From Nitrospira sp. (GTDB taxonomy: Bacteria > Nitrospirota > Nitrospiria > Nitrospirales > Nitrospiraceae): a stretch of 10,042 nucleotides of DNA. The notes beneath the pieces were generated by a model, which made no database searches, was not told the origin of the DNA, and saw only the letters and a program-made list of their open reading frames with translations. The stretch's first letter is position 1. Each line of letters opens with the position of its first letter. Where the stretch lies: contig JANYAJ010000172.1 in NCBI GenBank assembly GCA_025361385.1, positions 1 to 10,042 on the forward strand, written 5' to 3'. The translations under genes were made by a program, and so were the position numbers. This document shows positions 1 to 10,042 of the stretch, piece after piece.

Positions 1-23
1 CAAGGACACCACCAACTTGTTAG

Positions 24-3000
24 TTACTGCCCGCCCATCGAGGTCCGCGAGATACTCCCGCCACCATTCTCCTGATCCGCCGTCTTGACGGGTGGAACTT
101 GAGGCGTCAATGGGAGAATCCGTTGATCCTCGACCGGAAGCACTTTGAAGAGACCCCATTGCCCGGCATTCGCAAATGCCGGACGCTGGTTCTTCCACAT
201 ATAATCGCCAACGATTTTATTCGGTCCACCAGCGCCGCCCGTGAGATAGGCGTTGATAACCTCGGACCCGCCGAACTCCATGGTGCTGACTTGGTCGGCA
301 CCCTGCATGTACGGCTCGTGCGGCCACTCATGGCCATCCACGGTAAACAACTGCACCTGCTCGCTGAATGCGCCGAGCACGTGAACCGCCACCGGGTCTC
401 CCACGTGCGCCTGCAATAGCGGCGTGGAAGGCGTATCTCCGGCCTTCACGCAACTGAAGACTTCGGAGATCTCACAGCCCTTTTCGATCCGCCAGGCGGT
501 CGGTTCTGACCGGTAATTGACCGCCGTGATGCCGGCCACCTGTTGGATGTAGGGCATGAAACTGACGCCCACGATGTTATCCTCGTCCTGGAACATCAAC
601 GAGAAATCGCGGTAGTTCTTCCGGTTATCGTTCCCGGGAATCGTCCGATCCACGAGCACGTCGGCGCGCCAGCTGCTCTTCATCGTGATGTCAGTGCCAG
701 TCACCGGGTCGCGGTAGCGCGATCCCTTCGGACCGACAATGATCGAGCCGAACAGACCGTTTCGTGGATTCTCGACCACGTTACCCCAATCCTGAATGAG
801 GGCGGCCAATTCTCCGTACTCCGGATGCGCGTAGTACGTGTAGGTCTTGCTCTGGCCAGGAGCGATCGTTTGATCGCCCGGATTGTTGCCGACATTGGCG
901 CCGAACGAATCTTTCGGATCGAACGCCATCATATCGACGTGGAATCCGGCTCGTTCCTTGGCCATCTCATTTTTCAGATTCACCTTTACGCAATCCCCAA
1001 CGTTGACATGCAGGGTCAGCGGGCTCGGCCTCAGCTCCCCGGCCTTCACCCGACCCCGATCCTCGTCGAGGACGTACATCTTGCCCTGCTCGTTCCCGAA
1101 GACCATCTTCCGTTCGAGATCGACTTCCATCGTACCGGGCGTTCCTTCGTGGTACCGGATGTTCTGATCGATCGCCGACACGTTGAAGCTCTTCACCGGT
1201 GCATCAGCCGGGCAGACCGACGGGGCAGACTTTTGGATCTGCTCACGACTCGGCAAGGGCTTCAGATCCCCTTGCAGTTCATCGAAAACCCGGAAGAGGC
1301 CCCAACTGCCTTCCGCAAAGTGCGAGGCACGGCCACTGTAATACATGTAGTCGCCGGCCTGTTTCTGTGGACCACCGGCAGCTGGAATCGCCGGGTCGTA
1401 GCGCTCTCCGATCGCCAAGTGAATCGTGCTTCGCGGCATGGCCATGATGCCGTACCGTTCCATCGGGAACCAGTGGCCCGTCACGTGCCACGTATGGACT
1501 TCATTGGCAGAACCAACGAGTGCACGAACCAGAATCGGATCGCCGAGATAGGCCCGCAGCAACGGCGTGCCCGGATCTCCGTGAATACCGGACACAAACA
1601 GCTTCGACGGATCCGGATTGTTGGCCAAACGCACACTCAACGGCTCGACGCGCATGCTGTAGCCGCTGCCCGTCGTTGCCTCTCCACCATTCAGAAACGT
1701 CATGGCCGATTTGTTAATGCGCTCAGGGAACTGATGCGACGGAGGCCCGTCGACGGTCGTCGCCCCCATTCTAGCTTGGGGATTGTCGGTGCTGATGAGC
1801 TCTGCCGTCCGCGCATTGCTGTCCATGATATGCATCATGACCTCGCGGAAACTCCCACGGATGTGGGCCGACACAGGCTCCAAGGTGTGAATGTCGGCGA
1901 TGGGGCCGCTCCGGATCTCCTTCCCGGTCACAGGATCGTGATAGGTCGAGCGCGGCGGCTCGGTAATGAAGGCAGAGAACAGTCCATGTCCCCAGGTATC
2001 GGTCCCGAAGACGTGATCGTGCCAGTAGACCGTCCCGAAATCGGCATCCACATACCAGCGTTCGCGGATGAACTCGACGCTCGCAATGTCCTTCTTCTTA
2101 TGCGCGTACTTGAGCGGCGCATCGAAGGTGATCGTATTGCCCTTGATGCTCTTGATCCGCACCACCTCAAAATACTTAGGATCGTCCATCCCCACGCCGA
2201 GTTCGATGTTCTCGTGGAACTTGGACGGATTGCTCACCGTGATGCTGCGTGCGCCGGCCTTGGTATCCGCCGTCAGTACCGTGTTGCCCGGCAGTGGCAT
2301 CCCCTTGTCCGGCTGCGGGTCTTCCAACATCGTGAAGGCCCGCAGCGACATGTCGTAGGAGAATCCGATCGTGGGTCCATCGGACGCGCTGGTGTCGAAC
2401 TGGAAGAAATGCGGATGGAGATTGATCTTATTCGCCCATCCTGTCCTCGCATCGTCGGGAATTTCATTCTTGAAAATGATATCGACGCAATCATACACAT
2501 TGCCGCGGATGACCAGCGGCAACTGCTTCTTGGGGTTCTTGCGAACCTCTTCCTCTTCTTCATGCAACACATAGATCATGCCGATCGGATCGACAATCGC
2601 AGGAGAGTTTTTGGTCGCCGGCTTGAGCGTGATCGGCAGCGTAATGGAATGAGTCGTGTAGAACTTCCGTGGAGAATGCTCCGGACACAAACTCCAAGGT
2701 CCCTGTTCACCGGGTCGGGCCTGCTCCGTACTCTTTGTTCCATCTTCACGCACATGGAACGGCTCCAGCCACGGTGCGCCACCATGATTCGGCGCAAACG
2801 GCGGGCGCTTTCCAAGATGTGGGCGCAGCCAGGGGAATGCCAGCTTCCCGGTCTGCGGATCGAAGGTAATCGCCGGGCGCTTCAACGGAGTCGGCGAGAC
2901 ATAGTCCGCCCACTTGTGCGGCGTTTCCGGCTCGTTCAGCGCCAATGCGCCCTCCCACTTCCAATTCACGACCGTCGCATCGTGCGCCTGGGCCTGCTTT

Positions 3001-4742
3001 ACCTGATCTTCCGTCTTGCCGGGCAATCCTTGCGGCGGCAGCATGTATTCGACCCAATCCTTGATCGAGACCTTGACCGGGTTGGCCTTCCAATCCGTCT
3101 TATCCTTGGTGATCTCGTACTTCTTTCCGCCGTACCAATCCACCGTCGTACCGACCAACTTGTCCGAACCGACTGCAAGCTTGATCTTCCCCTTGCGATC
3201 CGGCAGCTCGACGAGCGGCTTCATCACATCGGTCTGGAACCCGGTCGACTGCAACGTGTTGTACACACGCCAGAACCCCCACATCCCCGTCACATAATGC
3301 TGCGGGATATGGCAGTGAAACACGAACTCGCCGGCTAGAGCCTGCAAACCACCGGACCCGCCCTCGGTCACTTCATCGTAAATCTCGGACGGCCCAATGG
3401 ATTGCACATCCAGCCGATCCGACACATCGCTGATCGGCGGAAACTTCACCGGGCCATTCTTGGACAGGGTCGGATCGAGCTTGCTCGTGCCGGGCTGTCT
3501 GGCCCAGCGGATCGATCCACCATGCAGGTGGTGCGAATGTACGATTTCCGAACCGCCGATCATCCGGAACTTGGCGGGATCGCCCAGATAAGATCGCGGA
3601 ACCGTCGTCGCCGGATCGCCGAAGGTGTAGGACCCATAACCCTGCGATTCATCCGCAAACCCGATCAAATGTGCCTGCAACTCCAACCGTTCGCCGTGCG
3701 GTTCACTCCGGTAATTCAGCAAGCGAGCGGACGGCCGATAGGTGTCCGTATGGGCGTCACGCTGCGGCAGCATGTCGCCTTTGCGATCCAGAAGACGGAA
3801 GGTTTCGTCGCCCGCCTCATGATAGAAAATCACGAATTCGCGGAAGTCGGAACCCTTCTCGAGATCGATCATGGCTTCCCACCCGCTCTTCATCTCCTCC
3901 GCCGTAAAGGGGCTGAGATGGCGGGAGCCCCGCGGCTCCACGACGACCGAGCCCAGCAAACCCAAGGAATATTGATCCCTGCTCGCGTGGCTATGGAACG
4001 CGCGGCCGCCTTCCTGCAGATCGATGGGGATGAACCATTCGAATTCCCCGCTCTTCCCTGAAGGCACCAGGGCTTCAGGATTATTGGTGGTCGCCGGCTT
4101 GCCGGTGCTCGCCACGAGCATCTGGGAGCCGTTGATGATCATGTTCGTCGGCTCGTCGGCAATCTGATTCCGCAACGTGATCCGCAGGCAATCTCCCTGA
4201 TTCGCCCGAATCACGAGCGGCTGAATGAGATCGCCCTGCAGGCCATTCGAAACGGCGCCGCCGGCAAAGGTCGGATCCTCACTCTCCCGGGCAGCCTTGT
4301 TCTTCGTTTCTTCCTCGCGCACCCCGGCCACATTCTCCGTCAGCACATACATGAACCCCGGGTAGAAATCGCCGAATCGATTGACGGTGATTTCGACATT
4401 CATCGCCGTGACATCATAGGCTCGGACAGGGGCGGTCACTGGACAGCGAGCGCCCTGCGTCACTTGCACCTTGTCCGGGTCCTCAGCCACGAGCAACACA
4501 CCCTGCTGCATGGCATGGGCGCCGGCCCCCTGGAACGGTCCTTTCGTCTTGACCTCCCGCTCGATCTGCAGGACTGCCTTCGACATCTTGTCCTGCATCA
4601 TCGGACCGGCAGCCTGATGGACGACCGTCGCCTCCGCGGCCGCGTGTTGATGAGGAGTCGTTTCCGCCCATGTCTGCGTGACGCCTAAAACGGCGGCAAG
4701 CAACGCGACTCCTGCCCGACTCATAATCTTTCTACTGGTCAT
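24..4742 (-). CDS. Giant exported six-cupredoxin multicopper oxidase (MnxG/ceruloplasmin-like)
   Basis: Predicted secreted copper oxidase coupling one-electron oxidation of a substrate to reduction of O2 to water. Residues are counted from the ATG at 4742, chosen because AGGAGG lies 8 nt upstream; a GTG 15 codons earlier lacks this. A Sec-type signal (MTSRKIMSR, then a hydrophobic AGVALLAAVLGV core) probably ends at TWA-ET, about residue 26. Three repeats start with Cys-Pro at 100, 686 and 1177, each with an MYVL-type strand, a GDC/YDC segment and a final WGxF(R/K)V strand, so about six cupredoxin domains. Copper ligands form one set: H402, H405, H407 (HxxHxHG); H476, C477, H478, H482, M487 (HCHxxxHxxxGM); H776, H778 (HPH); H908, H910 (WHDH). 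The blue-copper half precedes the HPH/WHDH half, the reverse of laccases. Equivalent positions in domains 4 and 6 lack the Cys. Manganese, iron or another substrate is possible; the sequence does not decide. Confidence 0.93.
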   Translation of the reverse strand: MTSRKIMSRAGVALLAAVLGVTQTWAETTPHQHAAAEATVVHQAAGPMMQDKMSKAVLQIEREVKTKGPFQGAGAHAMQQGVLLVAEDPDKVQVTQGARCPVTAPVRAYDVTAMNVEITVNRFGDFYPGFMYVLTENVAGVREEETKNKAARESEDPTFAGGAVSNGLQGDLIQPLVIRANQGDCLRITLRNQIADEPTNMIINGSQMLVASTGKPATTNNPEALVPSGKSGEFEWFIPIDLQEGGRAFHSHASRDQYSLGLLGSVVVEPRGSRHLSPFTAEEMKSGWEAMIDLEKGSDFREFVIFYHEAGDETFRLLDRKGDMLPQRDAHTDTYRPSARLLNYRSEPHGERLELQAHLIGFADESQGYGSYTFGDPATTVPRSYLGDPAKFRMIGGSEIVHSHHLHGGSIRWARQPGTSKLDPTLSKNGPVKFPPISDVSDRLDVQSIGPSEIYDEVTEGGSGGLQALAGEFVFHCHIPQHYVTGMWGFWRVYNTLQSTGFQTDVMKPLVELPDRKGKIKLAVGSDKLVGTTVDWYGGKKYEITKDKTDWKANPVKVSIKDWVEYMLPPQGLPGKTEDQVKQAQAHDATVVNWKWEGALALNEPETPHKWADYVSPTPLKRPAITFDPQTGKLAFPWLRPHLGKRPPFAPNHGGAPWLEPFHVREDGTKSTEQARPGEQGPWSLCPEHSPRKFYTTHSITLPITLKPATKNSPAIVDPIGMIYVLHEEEEEVRKNPKKQLPLVIRGNVYDCVDIIFKNEIPDDARTGWANKINLHPHFFQFDTSASDGPTIGFSYDMSLRAFTMLEDPQPDKGMPLPGNTVLTADTKAGARSITVSNPSKFHENIELGVGMDDPKYFEVVRIKSIKGNTITFDAPLKYAHKKKDIASVEFIRERWYVDADFGTVYWHDHVFGTDTWGHGLFSAFITEPPRSTYHDPVTGKEIRSGPIADIHTLEPVSAHIRGSFREVMMHIMDSNARTAELISTDNPQARMGATTVDGPPSHQFPERINKSAMTFLNGGEATTGSGYSMRVEPLSVRLANNPDPSKLFVSGIHGDPGTPLLRAYLGDPILVRALVGSANEVHTWHVTGHWFPMERYGIMAMPRSTIHLAIGERYDPAIPAAGGPQKQAGDYMYYSGRASHFAEGSWGLFRVFDELQGDLKPLPSREQIQKSAPSVCPADAPVKSFNVSAIDQNIRYHEGTPGTMEVDLERKMVFGNEQGKMYVLDEDRGRVKAGELRPSPLTLHVNVGDCVKVNLKNEMAKERAGFHVDMMAFDPKDSFGANVGNNPGDQTIAPGQSKTYTYYAHPEYGELAALIQDWGNVVENPRNGLFGSIIVGPKGSRYRDPVTGTDITMKSSWRADVLVDRTIPGNDNRKNYRDFSLMFQDEDNIVGVSFMPYIQQVAGITAVNYRSEPTAWRIEKGCEISEVFSCVKAGDTPSTPLLQAHVGDPVAVHVLGAFSEQVQLFTVDGHEWPHEPYMQGADQVSTMEFGGSEVINAYLTGGAGGPNKIVGDYMWKNQRPAFANAGQWGLFKVLPVEDQRILPLTPQVPPVKTADQENGGGSISRTSMGGQ

Positions 4743-4925: not shown

Positions 4926-5260
4926 AGATCTTGAATGCTCATTCACACAACAAATCAGACAGTGAGGGAGCAAGTCCCGTTCCATCGAAGGTTGGTGAAG
5001 TCGAAGAATGGTTTTCTCAACGATTCAGGCAGATTTCGATTCTGCCGGAGGCGAATCGCGTTAAGTCATGGGACAGCAACGCCCCCTGACTCGCGACGAG
5101 ATCACGATAAATAGCTGATGAGAGAAGTCGATTGTGAATTGTCTGAAAATACCGCCCGATGGGGCGCTGACGTCCCATTCATCCTGAATAATTCACCACC
5201 GCACGATGACAAGGACACACAAGGCTCGATGCCTGAAGTTTATCCCTTCATCCTTGTGCC

Positions 5261-5280: not shown

Positions 5281-5313
5281 GTGACCCCCTTTTTGTCCTT
5301 GTATCGGATCATC

Positions 5314-6258
5314 ATGCAGAACAGCACTCGCACGATCAGACGCACGCGCCGAATTCCGGCTTGCCTCTACGCCTTCGGCGGCTGCATCGTCATCGTCGTG
5401 CTCATGGGGGCACCCTTAACCCGTGGCTCTACCGAAATGAGAAACTATGAGCAGAGCCCTCTCGATGCAATCGTCGCACGTTCGGGCGAATCTCCGATGC
5501 TGGCGGTCCCCGAAGGCACGTTCGTCATGGGTACCGCCCGCTACACCGACAAACCATTTAGTCTGGAGCTTCAATATGACGACACGGAGCAGCCCCAACG
5601 GCGCGTCTGGCTCAATCGGTATGAAATCGATCGGAACGAAGTGAGTCTGGGAGAATACTTGCTGTGGCTGAAGCAGCAACAACGCCTCCTCCCCGAGGAA
5701 GTACGCAAACTGATCGATCACGTCACGACCATCCATGCCCTATCGCCCGACACATTGGCACGGTGGCCTGCACTCTACGTCACCTGGTCTGATGCCTCGG
5801 CTTTCTGTCACGCGCACGGCACTCGGCTCCCGACGGAAGCCGAGTGGGAAAAAGCGGCTCGCGGAGACAGCGGCAACCTGTTTCCTTGGGGGCAGAAACC
5901 TCCCACTCCGGCGCTCGCGATGTTCGGACAGTATCATGTTCACGAGATTCCCCTCGTGGCGCCCGTTGATCGCGGAGCAGATGGTCGAAGCCCCTATGGC
6001 CTGCATCACATGGCTGGCAATGCCGCCGAGTGGGTCGAAGACTGGTTCGGAATCGACTACTATATGACCATGCCGGACCGCAATCCGCGCGGTCCAGCCA
6101 ACGGGCGCTACAAGGTGGTGCGCGGAGGCTCGTGGAAAAGCACGCCCGTGTTGTTGCGAACGGCCACCAGAAGCGGGGCCTCGTCGGACCAGCGCGCCGC
6201 GACCATCGGTTTTCGCTGCGCGCAATCCGTCACGTCCCCCACCCTTCCGACTCCATGA
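5314..6258 (+). CDS. Exported FGE/SUMF1-fold protein, NirV-like, lacking catalytic cysteines
   Basis: A 314-aa protein from the ATG at 5314. A GTG at 5281 is in frame but abuts the candidate promoter and has no ribosome site; the ATG has only a weak GGA 5 nt upstream. An Arg-rich start (RTIRRTRR) and a hydrophobic stretch at about residues 18-32 indicate a signal anchor or signal peptide, placing the rest in the periplasm. Residues about 62-304 form a full formylglycine-generating-enzyme (FGE-sulfatase) domain: EGTFVMGT, TRLPTEAEWEKAARG (170-184), GNAAEWVEDW (235-244), RGGSW (270-274) and a final GFR (299-301). The active-site cysteines of true FGE, which follow the GGS motif, are absent (GGSWKSTPVLLR), so sulfatase activation is unlikely. 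The same fold occurs in NirV, a partner of copper nitrite reductase, and in PvdO. It shares a regulatory region with the copper oxidase and overlaps the next gene by 4 bp. Confidence 0.88.
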   Translation: MQNSTRTIRRTRRIPACLYAFGGCIVIVVLMGAPLTRGSTEMRNYEQSPLDAIVARSGESPMLAVPEGTFVMGTARYTDKPFSLELQYDDTEQPQRRVWLNRYEIDRNEVSLGEYLLWLKQQQRLLPEEVRKLIDHVTTIHALSPDTLARWPALYVTWSDASAFCHAHGTRLPTEAEWEKAARGDSGNLFPWGQKPPTPALAMFGQYHVHEIPLVAPVDRGADGRSPYGLHHMAGNAAEWVEDWFGIDYYMTMPDRNPRGPANGRYKVVRGGSWKSTPVLLRTATRSGASSDQRAATIGFRCAQSVTSPTLPTP

Positions 6259-6881
6259 AGATCGCTATGTACTGGACCTATATGCTGCTCGTGATCGGGC
6301 TCAGCCTCGGCATGATGACACCGGCCTTCCCAGGCGCTTCACCTGACCAAGAACACCTGGTATGGAACAGCTACACCAACGCCCGCTTCGGCTTTTCCGT
6401 CCGCTATCCCGGCATCTGGAAGCTCGGCAATCCGCTTCCGAACGGCAGTGGCATCACCTTCCAGCCGCCGATTGACCAGAGCCTCATCGCCCTCTCAGGC
6501 CACATGAACCTCATAGAGGGATCGAGCCAGGATACACGGCAGACACTCGACGAGTTCGCCACCGCCCATCGGCGCATCCTCACCAACCTATTCGAAAAAA
6601 AGAAGATCGCCCTCGCCTGGCAAAATGAGCAGGACACCACTCTGGCTGGATTCCCGGCCAAGCGCCTGGCCTTCACGTACCAAGACGAGCACCAGACCTC
6701 GATGTTCGAACTGCACATTTTTTCGTTGGGACGTAACGAAGGACGGGGGGTGCGGATCAAGGTGCCGGTCTCAGCACAGGCAGACCTGCTACCGTCCGTC
6801 ACGAAAATGCTGGAGACCTATCAGCCCGGACGCGATCAAAACGCGGTCAGCCCTCTGGCGCAGAAATCAGCCACTCCGTAA
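6255..6881 (+). CDS. Small exported PsbP-like protein
   Basis: A 208-aa protein whose ATG overlaps the preceding stop (ATGA). No purine-rich ribosome site is seen before it, so translation is probably coupled to the FGE-fold gene. A signal peptide (MKIAMYWTYM, then LLVIGLSLGMM) probably ends after AFPGA, about residue 28. The mature part opens with YTNARFGFSVRYPGIWKLG (residues 40-58), the typical start of PsbP-like and related single-domain lipid- or membrane-associated proteins, followed by an AGFPAKRLAFTY strand (121-132) and a C-terminal helix ending at VTKMLETYQP. It has no cysteine and no obvious metal site. The bacterial family has no agreed function. The context suggests a periplasmic accessory role to the FGE-fold protein or the oxidase, which is inference. 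An alternative start at 6267 is less likely. Confidence 0.8.
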   Translation: MKIAMYWTYMLLVIGLSLGMMTPAFPGASPDQEHLVWNSYTNARFGFSVRYPGIWKLGNPLPNGSGITFQPPIDQSLIALSGHMNLIEGSSQDTRQTLDEFATAHRRILTNLFEKKKIALAWQNEQDTTLAGFPAKRLAFTYQDEHQTSMFELHIFSLGRNEGRGVRIKVPVSAQADLLPSVTKMLETYQPGRDQNAVSPLAQKSATP

Positions 6882-6893
6882 ACTGCAGACCTC

Positions 6894-8276
6894 TTAACTC
6901 GGCTCGCGCAGACCATGCCGCTTGACCATCCGTTCGATGGTCTTGCGGTCCACACCGGCTTCCTGAGCCGCATTGCTCATGTGCCACTGGTGGCGCTGAA
7001 GAAGTTCAAGGAGAAAGCAGCGCTCGAACGAACGAACCACTTCTTGTTTGACCTGCTTATAGGACCCTCCTTCCAGAGAAGCCGTATCGCCGGAAGCAGC
7101 CAGCCCCAGGCCGGATGGTAAATGCTCGAGACGGACCACCGGGCCGTCGGCCAATGCCGCCGCTCGCTCGATCACGTTCTGAAGCTCCCGAACATTGCCC
7201 GGCCAGCTATGGCTCATCAAGGCCGCGACCGCCGCAGGCTCGAAGGTCGGAGTGGCGCCGGCATCCGTTCGATGCTGCTGCATGAAGCGCTGCAAAAATT
7301 CGCGCGCCAATACTTCGATATCACCCTCCCGCTCTCGCAAGGGGGGAAGGACGACGGGAATGACGTTGAGGCGATAATAGAGATCTTCTCGAAACTCGCC
7401 CTTCTTCTGTGCCTCCGCCAGATCCCGATTCGAGGCCGCAATCACTCGCACGTCGATATCGATATACCGTGTCCCGCCAACCCGGCGAAACTGGCGTTCC
7501 TGCAACACTCTGAGCAATCGCGATTGCAGCGTCTGGCTCATCCCGCTGACTTCGTCCAAGAACACCGTGCCGCCATGGGCCGTTTCAAACAGACCTGGTT
7601 TGGCTGCATGGGCTCCGGTAAATGCGCCCCGCTCATGCCCTAATAGCTCCGATTCCAGCAAGGCATCCGGCATGGAGACACAGTCCACCGGCACAAATGG
7701 CTTATTCGCTCGCTGACTATGGTCATGGATCGCGCGGGCAACCAGCTCCTTGCCTGTTCCGCTTTCCCCATAGATCAGAATGTTTGCATCCGTTCTGGCC
7801 ACCTTAGTGACCAGACTCAAGACGGCTTGAATGGCCAAACTCTTGCCCACAATCTGTCGCAGCGGGTGCTTCGTTCGCGCGAGGACCGGAGATAGATTCT
7901 GCCGAGGCGACTCCTCGAAAGCCCGGTGCGCGACTTCTTCAAGATCCCTGCTCGTATAGGGTTTCAGGATGTAATCCAGCGCCCCTTGCCGCATGGAGGA
8001 CACCGCGGTTTGTACGGTCGCAAAGGCCGTCATCAGGACGACCTTGATGGTCGGATCGAACCGTTTTGTCGCGTTGAGCACATCGATGCCGCTCAGACCC
8101 GGCATGCGCAAATCGGTGAGCACAAGACCTGGGCGCTCCTGTTGAACGACGTTCAGCGCACGAACCGGATCATGCTCCGTCAAACATTCATGGCCGAGCC
8201 GGCTCAAAATGCGACGACAGTTTTCGAGCGCCTCCACTTCGTCATCGACGATCAGTATTTTTCCTGCATGTCCCAT
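6894..8276 (-). CDS. NtrC-class sigma-54-dependent response regulator
   Basis: A 460-aa transcription activator of standard NtrC length. The receiver domain (about 1-120) has acidic residues D11 and D12, phospho-acceptor D55 (LVLTDLRMPG), T83 and K105. The AAA+ domain (about 140-375) has Walker A GESGTGKE at 170-177, an intact GAFTGA loop at 217-222 that contacts sigma-54, Walker B GGTVFLDE at 235-242, FREDLYYRLNV at 296-306 and SWPGNVREL at 357-365. A Fis-type helix-turn-helix ends the protein (about 415-457, with NAAQEAGVDRKTIERMVKR). AGGAGG lies 4 nt before the ATG, inside the end of the kinase gene, and the two genes overlap by 25 bp, so they are co-expressed partners. Phosphorylation by the kinase should trigger ATPase-driven opening of sigma-54 promoters. 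No such promoter is visible in the window, so its targets are unknown. Confidence 0.96.
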   Translation of the reverse strand: MGHAGKILIVDDEVEALENCRRILSRLGHECLTEHDPVRALNVVQQERPGLVLTDLRMPGLSGIDVLNATKRFDPTIKVVLMTAFATVQTAVSSMRQGALDYILKPYTSRDLEEVAHRAFEESPRQNLSPVLARTKHPLRQIVGKSLAIQAVLSLVTKVARTDANILIYGESGTGKELVARAIHDHSQRANKPFVPVDCVSMPDALLESELLGHERGAFTGAHAAKPGLFETAHGGTVFLDEVSGMSQTLQSRLLRVLQERQFRRVGGTRYIDIDVRVIAASNRDLAEAQKKGEFREDLYYRLNVIPVVLPPLREREGDIEVLAREFLQRFMQQHRTDAGATPTFEPAAVAALMSHSWPGNVRELQNVIERAAALADGPVVRLEHLPSGLGLAASGDTASLEGGSYKQVKQEVVRSFERCFLLELLQRHQWHMSNAAQEAGVDRKTIERMVKRHGLREPS

Positions 8277-10042
8277 CCGGCCTCCTGAGATGTTTCGGAC
8301 ACGATCGCGAGTGCGGGAAAGATCGCCGTCGCCACGGCTCCCACCTCTCCATTCGCAACTTCCAAGCGCCCCCGATGATCAGACACAATCCCATAGCTCA
8401 AAAACAGCCCCAGCCCTGTCCCTTGGCCGGCATCCTTCGTTGTAAAGAACGGATCGAAAATGCGACCGAGGATCTCTTCCGGGATACCAGGTCCATTATC
8501 AGTTACCTTAATCGTGGCCCACTTTTCTCCCTCCCGTTGCAGCCGGTCCGACTGAACCGTCACCACCCCTTCACGGTCGCATCCCCGCACGGCATCGATG
8601 GCATTATTGATGAGATTGAGGACGACCGTTTCCAGCCGATCGCGATCACCCATGATCACCGGCACATCGAGGGACAAGACCGATTCAAGACGGACTCCCT
8701 GGGTCGCCGCCCGTTCCCGTGCCATGTCCACACAAGAACGAAGCACACAGTTGAGATCGATCGGCTTCAGCGTCGTGGCGGAACCATGTGAGAGGGCCAA
8801 CATGCTCTTGGTGATCCGGCTGATCCGTTCTGCTTGGGACCGGATTGCCAGCAGATCGCGCTGCATTTCCGCCGGCAGCTTCAGTTCAGAGGCTTCCGCT
8901 TCGATACATTCAATCCGGTTGAGCATGATGCCCAAGGGATTGTTAATCTCATGGGCAATCCCGCTCGCCACCTTGCCCAGCGTCGCCAAACGTTCCGAAA
9001 GATGGAGCTGCTTCATGTGCCGAGTGACCTCGGTGGTCTTTTCCTCCACCCGCCTGGTCAAGTCGTTGTTCAACGATTCCATTTCGGCATGGGACGCGTT
9101 CAGCTTGTCCGCCATCCGATGCACCGCCGTCGCCAATTCTTCGAATTCGTCTCCTGTTCGAATGTCGAGCGGTCCCCCATAGGTTCCCCGGCTGATCGCC
9201 TCGACCCCCGCCTGCAGAGTTTGAATCGGGCGAGCAATTCTGGCCGCCACATAGCGGCCGATGGCCCACAAGAGTCCGATCATGACGAAACCGATGATGG
9301 CGAGATTGCGGAGTTGATCCCTGATCGGTGCGTAACTTTCAGCAGGCTGTTGCCGGACAAAGACATGCCAGGTATTGCCAGGAGCGCCAAGAGCCGGTAC
9401 CGGCGCAAAACCGACCACGGTATCACGAGCGCCATGCCCATCGTCTTCGGCAATCCCCCACCCAGGGTCATCGGACACGATCATAGCCATGAGGGGCACA
9501 GCAATCCGGTGGGCCTGACGGGGCAGGATCGGACAGATGAGCGGCTGGCCATCGGCGCTGAACAGCATCGCATGACCGGTCTGACCGATGCGGATTTGAT
9601 TGATCATCCCGAAGAGGGTATCGAACCGGTAGGAGACCTTGATCGCGCCGATCACGATACGCTGATGGTCGTCGAAGATCGGGACCGCCACATCGATCGT
9701 CTCGTCCGGAGCCCGAAAGGAACCGCCACGCCCGGCCGTGAGTCCGCCCAGATAGACCTGTTCACCGTTTCCGCTCTGAATCGCCTTCCACCAAGGCTCC
9801 TCCCCAAAAAAATAGTGGTCTGGCTCCGATGTGGCCGCGACAAGCGCGCCATGCTGATCCGTGATGAGGATCCCGACCATCTTGTCCCCATCCCGCACTT
9901 TCGTCTCCAACAAAAATCGTGAGAGCTCGGTGTTCAACAGGCGCGCGGCCGCGTCTGTGCCTTGCTCCCAGGCTCGGGCACGATCTTGGTTTAGCGCGAT
10001 GGCCTTGGAGGGATCCCCGGGATAGGAACGATTGGCGAGTTC
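8252..10042 (-). CDS. Cache-like sensor histidine kinase, 5' end outside the window
   Basis: The frame stays open to the right edge, so the start is missing; 596 codons are visible, counted here from the edge. The TTG at 9937 is in the middle of the sensor domain and is not the start. Residues about 36-235 look like the extracytoplasmic part of a dCache domain ([42 protein letters not shown]). A membrane segment lies at about 247-264 ([16 protein letters not shown]), followed by a HAMP linker, a coiled coil (about 315-350) and the kinase core: H-box [11 protein letters not shown] with H364, N-box [10 protein letters not shown] (N480), [11 protein letters not shown] (D515), FDPFFTTK (529-536) and GQGTGLGL (540-547). 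The H-box is of the NtrB-like HisKA type often paired with NtrC-class regulators, as here. The ligand is unknown; Cache domains usually bind small molecules in the periplasm. The first membrane segment should lie beyond the edge. Confidence 0.94.
8281..8286 (-). promoter_or_regulatory. Ribosome binding site of the response regulator inside the kinase gene
   Basis: AGGAGG on the minus strand, 4 nt before the ATG at 8276 and within the last codons of the kinase. The spacing is rather short, but the motif is complete, and it supports the 25-bp gene overlap. Confidence 0.6.

Follow-up and report, generated by a model that had tools for sequence, protein, structure and literature searches.

The stretch of DNA analyzed here, referred to below as the window (10,042 nucleotides), makes up the entire contig C97 of a metagenome-assembled genome (MAG) of Nitrospira sp., which is 3.05 Mb in size and 82% complete. 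A 16S search of this MAG gave no match, and its assignment is based on relatives. A gene on the reverse strand (positions 24–4742) encodes a six-domain multicopper oxidase of 1572 amino acids (1572 codons in the ORF reading) with an N-terminal segment that appears signal-like by eye. The ATG at position 4742 is preceded by AGGAGGGG, and the ribosome site was rated good by eye. Upstream of the oxidase, the forward strand encodes a protein with an FGE-sulfatase domain (positions 5281–6258) and an exported-looking protein of 208 amino acids, P0001 (positions 6255–6881). These are followed on the reverse strand by an NtrC-type response regulator with a receiver domain, a sigma-54 activator domain, and a Fis-type HTH (positions 6894–8276), and by a sensor histidine kinase that contains dCache_1 and HAMP domains (positions 8252–10042), the 5′ end of which is cut by the contig end.

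The copper ligands of the oxidase were located using regex searches of the whole protein. Single matches were obtained for HxxHxHG (residue 402), HCHxxxHxxxGM (residues 476–487), HPH (residue 776), and WHxH (residue 907, as WHDH). While HxH has seven matches, five of these (402, 405, 476, 776, and 908) are parts of the four motifs and the remaining two (31 and 250) form no second ligand set, confirming the original prediction that the complete set occurs once. Ligand roles were assigned by alignment to MnxG together with known laccase chemistry. On the reverse strand, HSHHLH (residues 402–407; positions 3522–3539) would supply H402 to the type 1 site and H405 and H407 to the trinuclear site, while HCHIPQHYVTGM (residues 476–487; positions 3282–3317) would supply the trinuclear ligands H476 and H478 and the type 1 ligands C477, H482, and M487. 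The HPH motif (residues 776–778; positions 2409–2417) and H908 and H910 of WHDH (residues 907–910; positions 2013–2024) would complete the trinuclear site.

None of the 12 ligands (H402, H405, H407, H476, C477, H478, H482, M487, H776, H778, H908, and H910) varies across the alignment of 53 sequences, in agreement with the anticipated conservation of these motifs among homologues. This set is made up of the window oxidase and 40 type A, 11 type B, and 1 type C relatives, the 52 relatives having been picked from 80 ORF rows with short, broken, and split frames excluded. The invariance of the ligands led to rejection of a dead or structural oxidase, and the identical motif order across the 53 sequences led to rejection of a misassembled chimera; a chance set of copper motifs was likewise rejected. 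A second set of 40 sequences was composed of the window oxidase, 20 sequences from eight genomes of the same family, 10 plasmid-borne sequences from other phyla, and nine MAG loci. In this set H402, H405, H407, H482, H776, H778, and H908 are kept in all 40 sequences, H476, C477, H478, and H910 in 39, and M487 in 38, with Phe in Rubrobacter and Ala in Pseudonocardia at the latter position. The Pseudonocardia sequence, a single and possibly misaligned row, lacks both the HCH of domain 2 and the second His of the domain 3 WHxH, and this joint loss is what one shared site would predict.

Pfam matches within the oxidase correspond to Cu-oxidase_3 (two stretches) and Cu-oxidase_2 (one stretch). The MAG contains one copy of the window oxidase. 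A search of the same genome with PF07732 returned five matches that do not include the window gene, although hmmscan does find the domain in the oxidase. Three further Cu-oxidase_3 genes are present on contigs C219, C446, and C461 (L001–L005) in frames of 639, 650, and 352 codons, sizes that suggest smaller oxidases or nitrite-reductase-like proteins.

Internal triplication and the domain 2/domain 3 interface

The oxidase was divided into six cupredoxin domains, the borders of which were set by the authors before comparison of the domain profiles using hhalign. Domain 1 (residues 98–280; positions 3903–4451, reverse strand, as for all six domains) is without a complete copper site. Domain 2 (residues 296–500; positions 3243–3857) contains the only type 1 site and half of the trinuclear ligands, and in domain 3 (residues 680–950; positions 1893–2705) an insert separates HPH from WHDH. 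Domains 4, 5, and 6 (residues 955–1165, 1172–1350, and 1366–1545; positions 108–1880) are also without a complete copper site. The placement of the motifs in domains 2 and 3 had been proposed from the sequence, and the coordinates and the hhalign domain map agree on it.

Results from hhalign demonstrate that the odd domains are mutually homologous (probabilities of 97.2 for domains 1 and 3, 99.6 for 1 and 5, and 98.6 for 3 and 5), as are the even domains (97.6 for domains 2 and 4, 96.1 for 2 and 6, and 99.4 for 4 and 6), which bears out the predicted six-domain architecture. No odd–even kinship was detected by hhalign in the nine pairs compared (probability of at most 13.2). This pattern indicates that the oxidase is a two-domain unit repeated three times, making the 2/3, 4/5, and 6/1 interfaces equivalent. 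Two histidines of domain 1, H250 and H252, are present in 41 and 51 of the 53 sequences, respectively, and by eye look like relics. H1083 and H1086 were also considered as relics; this was rejected, as the profile alignment of domains 2 and 4 does not pair them with H402 and H405 and the label would be by eye only.

Two AlphaFold2 models were calculated. The first covered residues 96–1160 with 31 sequences (mean column identity 85%, too uniform) and has a mean pLDDT of 42.4, while the second covered residues 296–950 with 53 sequences (mean column identity 89%, too uniform) and has a mean pLDDT of 43.7. Blocks of domain 2 have pLDDT values of 19–35 in both models. To deepen the alignment, viral contigs were scanned as well; the 29 pattern stretches obtained include no relative. 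Since both models are poor in domain 2, the argument for convergence of the histidines is drawn from homology rather than from a model, and on this basis H405, H407, H476, H478, H776, H778, H908, and H910 are expected to come together at the 2/3 interface. The copper architecture described here is proposed with very high confidence.

Relationship to MnxG and other six-domain oxidases

The arrangement of ligands in the window oxidase can be compared with that of six-domain oxidases analyzed previously (Vasin et al. 2013, PMC3600357). In the portion of that study used here, the trinuclear histidines are placed in domains 2 and 3 in all of the bacterial six-domain oxidases analyzed there and in algal Fox1, the mononuclear site of the bacterial enzymes is placed in domain 2 only, and a common six-domain ancestor is proposed for all of the oxidases analyzed. 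The window oxidase likewise has six domains and a lone type 1 site in domain 2, and its trinuclear histidines are split between domains 2 and 3. Its length of 1572 amino acids falls inside the range of 1217–2681 amino acids of those oxidases, and, as no defining difference from the prokaryotic six-domain oxidases was found, it represents one more member of that group. The motif order given in the original prediction is therefore confirmed, with the qualification that published bacterial six-domain oxidases such as MnxG normally have this layout, which makes it a family rule rather than a peculiarity of this protein.

Ceruloplasmin and hephaestin share with the window oxidase the logic of a ring made of a triplicated two-domain unit. 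In ceruloplasmin, however, the trinuclear cluster is located between domains 1 and 6 and there are three type 1 sites, in contrast to the 2/3 location and single type 1 site of the window oxidase (PMC3600357, same portion). A ceruloplasmin-type 6/1 site was not found in the window oxidase, as the only HCH lies in domain 2 and domain 1 is without an HxH aligned to HPH. The suggested equivalence of the 2/3 interface and the 6/1 interface of ceruloplasmin is supported by the internal triplication, by the motif alignment with the MnxG structure 9bxa described below, and by the published analysis as far as it was available (PMC3600357).

The closest solved relative of the window oxidase by sequence is MnxG 9bxa (E = 1.6e-91; 5.4e-116 with a profile), and MnxG, named earlier as the closest comparison, is the right one. 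The HVFHYH, HCH...M, FHIHFVKFD, and FFHDH stretches of 9bxa align to the four motifs of the window oxidase, and their placement is the same, the first two (HVFHYH and HCH) lying in domain 2 and the other two (FHIH and FHDH) in domain 3. The window oxidase thus has both the homology and the ligand placement of Bacillus-type MnxG. Residue 340 of 9bxa is Ala, whereas His is found at this position in the Priestia megaterium MnxG ortholog (in L082; 1705 bits to 9bxa) and in the window oxidase (H482). H340A is what we take to be a known type 1 variant of MnxG, and the His of the Priestia ortholog suggests that 9bxa represents such a variant.

These proteins differ in length, the window oxidase being about 345 residues longer than Bacillus MnxG. 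The spacing that precedes the domain 3 ligands is 289 residues in the window oxidase versus 184 in Bacillus MnxG, and the spacing between HPH and WHDH in domain 3 is 130 residues versus 44 in Priestia MnxG. Residues 816–885 (window positions of about 2088–2297), which separate the HPH and WHDH ligands of domain 3, and residues 516–635 contribute to the greater length, and several of the rare blocks that the AlphaFold2 models predict well are found in them (pLDDT of up to 93). Additionally, no MnxE- or MnxF-like genes were detected in the window or in L006–L060 (tblastn, E up to 1). The queries were a pair of small ORFs that precede the mnxG ortholog in Priestia, their identity as MnxE and MnxF having been read from size and position.

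The similarity of the window oxidase to Pseudomonas-type MnxG (NCBIfam NF041487) is distant (E = 4.9e-41). Membership in the NF041487 MnxG equivalog was rejected, as the window oxidase scores 139.8 bits where 3100 are required; the Priestia MnxG ortholog, at 332.6 bits, is also below this cut-off. In an LG tree of 40 sequences, the root of which was picked by the authors and with which a FastTree analysis of the 40 sequences agrees, a bootstrap of 100 separates the 30 Nitrospira-type sequences from the rest. A second split, also with a bootstrap of 100, separates these and a Streptomyces plasmid protein from Priestia MnxG, haloarchaeal, and other proteins, such that the window oxidase does not group with MnxG among these 40 sequences. 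The Streptomyces plasmid protein (L081, 2335–7653; 1772 amino acids), which shows 33.6% identity across 92% of the query and adjoins a CopC gene, is the nearest relative outside Nitrospirota within the sequence set.

Distribution, gene neighborhood, and regulation

Of 147 genomes searched in the family, 146 contain a homologue of the window oxidase, including all 109 good genomes; in the class, 97 of 98 genomes do so, including all 86 good genomes. Across the phylum the count is 69 of 198 genomes, with 109 of the genomes lacking a match absent from the listing; four of the matches come from outside the class and are weak (best E values of 2.8e-9 to 4.3e-19). Homologues from the other families in the class include some that are 61–63% identical to the window oxidase. 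The 54 relative loci are titled as Nitrospira or Nitrospirota type in 53 cases and as Nitrosospira in one (L015), with identities that are mostly 84–94% (68–78% for L057–L059). Paralogues can be separated by identity to the window oxidase into type A (from about 84%), type B (about 69–71%), and others near 53–56%.

Downstream of the oxidase, relatives encode a CarboxypepD_reg protein, a 170-amino acid protein, and a small metal-binding protein (SMBP, PF16785), with not all three present at every locus. A locus that is 96.2% identical over window positions 1–1464 (L056) has the same first three genes past the contig end. An SHD...CxxHxxM stretch identified by regex in 37 of the 52 CarboxypepD_reg homologues of at least 200 amino acids resembles a type 1 copper site, suggesting from the motif that this neighbor may be cupredoxin-like. 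The 170-amino acid protein has no Pfam or NCBIfam match, and SMBP exceeds the Pfam cut-off in one of three copies tested. The FGE-domain protein and P0001, for which neither Pfam nor NCBIfam gave a match at E up to 1, recur beside either oxidase (A or B) in many Nitrospira loci.

A second full-length oxidase (type B) is located 2.2–4.1 kb away in 11 of the 54 loci, usually with a DUF4412-like protein and another copy of the CarboxypepD_reg protein, and often with another SMBP. L028 (9980–23694), L048, L034, and others combine giant A and B oxidases of about 69% identity in a single cluster. Each of the two is usually accompanied by a cupredoxin-like CarboxypepD_reg protein of its own, and often by an SMBP, giving the appearance of a duplicated metal module in Nitrospira.

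The kinase and regulator pair (at least 60% identity) is found upstream of the type A oxidase in 10 of the 54 relative loci (L008, L018, L022, L023, L024, L027, L035, L038, L044, and L054), a count that includes many loci with too little upstream DNA and others that carry a permease there. In L015 and L049 the regulator alone precedes the B gene, at the locus start. A sigma-54-type −24/−12 element, TGGAACGGGACTTGCT, is located on the reverse strand at positions 4969–4984, just over 220 bases upstream of the oxidase ATG, and differs by one mismatch from what we take to be the sigma-54 consensus. It is the only match with one mismatch in the window, where 0.30 would be expected, and its probability of arising by chance on that intergenic strand is 0.0074; matches with three mismatches are not in excess (41 versus 39 expected). 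Sites with at most one mismatch occur upstream of 6 of 39 A, 2 of 11 B, and 0 of 1 C genes, compared with 0.7% in base shuffles, although these rows are related and hence not independent. In eight of nine loci with the kinase and regulator pair (L054 excluded), GGAA[CT]-N5-TTGCT is kept while the flanks differ; it is not kept in L027. Taken from the available part of PMC11930936, mnxG and mcoA of Pseudomonas putida GB-1 have predicted IHF/sigma-54 promoters, with MnxS/MnxR as the proposed regulators. A putative sigma-54-type promoter is common to the window oxidase and Pseudomonas-type MnxG, and the element of the window oxidase parallels those predicted for P. putida mnxG and mcoA. The oxidase gene is probably switched on via the nearby kinase and sigma-54 regulator pair.

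Possible function of the oxidase

The window oxidase is probably a prokaryotic six-domain enzyme of the MnxG superfamily that would function as an exported periplasmic or cell-surface metal oxidase, with Mn(II) as the first candidate substrate. Three fused copies of a two-domain unit would form the six-domain protein, which may close into a ring and would retain the full copper set at the domain 2/domain 3 interface alone among three equivalent inter-unit interfaces. Following export to the periplasm or cell surface of Nitrospira, the type 1 copper of domain 2 would accept single electrons from the reductant. These electrons would then pass through Cys477 and the flanking His476 and His478 to the trinuclear cluster, to which domains 2 and 3 would each contribute four histidines and at which O2 would be reduced to water. 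The reductant is most likely a metal ion, and confidence in a metal-ion substrate is slightly greater than that in the overall proposal. Mn(II) is placed first, with Fe(II) or Cu(I) as possibilities, and its assignment as the physiological substrate is tentative. No report on the substrate or structure of the window oxidase was found in the open-licence literature on Nitrospira multicopper oxidases, as judged from titles and the starts of abstracts. An MnxG-like oxidase common to Nitrospina and Nitrospira is described in the consulted part of Luecker et al. (2013, PMC3578206), and the multicopper oxidase of Nitrospina gracilis and Ca. Nitrospira defluvii discussed there very probably belongs to the family of the window oxidase. 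In contrast to the present analysis, neither that text nor the consulted part of the sand-filter study cited below (PMC12070406) covers ligand order, paralogues, or promoter.

The main rival to Mn(II) is Cu(I), which would make the protein a cuprous oxidase like CueO/PcoA that keeps periplasmic copper as Cu(II) and serves copper homeostasis in copper-hungry nitrifiers. This is judged rather unlikely. The cupredoxin-like and small metal-binding neighbors in relatives favor it, as do the plasmid relatives: four of eight distinct annotated examples adjoin genes for copper or heavy metals (CopC, P-type ATPase, or CzcA-type efflux), making Cu(I) a real alternative, while the other four have no such genes within the stretch shown. 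On the other hand, a manganese oxidase is the closest relative by sequence among solved structures, and the sigma-54 element is reminiscent of P. putida mnxG and mcoA. Furthermore, CueO and PcoA/CopA are counted as the copper oxidases of nitrifiers in the accessible part of PMC13374858, such that the copper oxidase role may already be filled.

A defense against reactive oxygen, in which enzyme-made Mn(III) reacts with periplasmic superoxide, is held to be about as unlikely as cuprous oxidation, and is a purpose of Mn(II) oxidation rather than a separate chemistry. In the excerpted text of Luecker et al. (PMC3578206), an Mn(III)-based oxygen-radical defense was proposed for the Nitrospina/Nitrospira homologue, N. 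defluvii is described as having neither superoxide dismutase nor catalase, and the oxidase is similar to that of Bacillus SG-1 and located in the NXR gene cluster. The presence of the family across the class (97 of 98 genomes) would also suit a basic need. However, of eight single-contig genomes, only one has a listed homologue and a PF13247 (NxrB-like) match no more than 10 kb apart. An NxrB-sized frame with a PF13247 match is found about 4.6 kb from a 53%-identical paralogue (G033:C1:2308407-2312891), recalling the NXR-linked oxidase of the same paper.

A role in energy metabolism, with electrons from Mn(II) or another reductant feeding the cell and nitrite oxidizers acting as facultative manganese oxidizers, is improbable. 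Nitrospira have been tied to manganese removal in sand filters, with MnxG and Cyc2 cited in their genomes (PMC12070406, in part), and two multicopper oxidases are encoded by all members of Ca. Manganitrophaceae according to the available text of PMC9040806. However, energy conservation would need a periplasmic electron carrier instead (same text), whereas a four-copper oxidase passes electrons straight to O2. In addition, a family found in nearly all members does not mark specialists.

In two-domain laccases the cluster sits between subunits, and domain 2 of the window oxidase aligns to the second domain of such enzymes (4m3h, 3tas, and others). A cluster formed in the same trimeric style by domain 2 of one chain and domain 3 of another is nevertheless highly improbable, as the six fused domains already supply a three-unit ring and the Mnx complex contains one MnxG (MnxGE3F3; PMC5622069, in part).

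Returning to the proposed metal oxidase, a broader possibility can be put forward, although it is unlikely: the class that includes Nitrospira could have, as an ancestral core enzyme, a manganese oxidase that depends on O2, is controlled by sigma-54, and has a 2/3 trinuclear cluster. Nitrite oxidizers and comammox organisms would then routinely make Mn(III/IV) by this enzyme, and the manganese lithotrophs of the class would have built on it. The counts add to the literature the near-universal, less expected presence of the family in the class; the ligand order was already known and is settled as no oddity. These findings bear on the use of the gene as a marker. In the portion of a 2025 sand-filter study used here (PMC12070406), MnxG in Nitrospira MAGs is cited as a hint of manganese oxidation, and the gene so cited, from the same organisms, very probably belongs to this near-universal class family. 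As the family is present in 97 of the 98 sampled class genomes, presence alone cannot mark manganese oxidizers. The window oxidase thus represents a near-universal, strongly conserved, and apparently sigma-54-controlled oxidase present in widespread nitrifiers.
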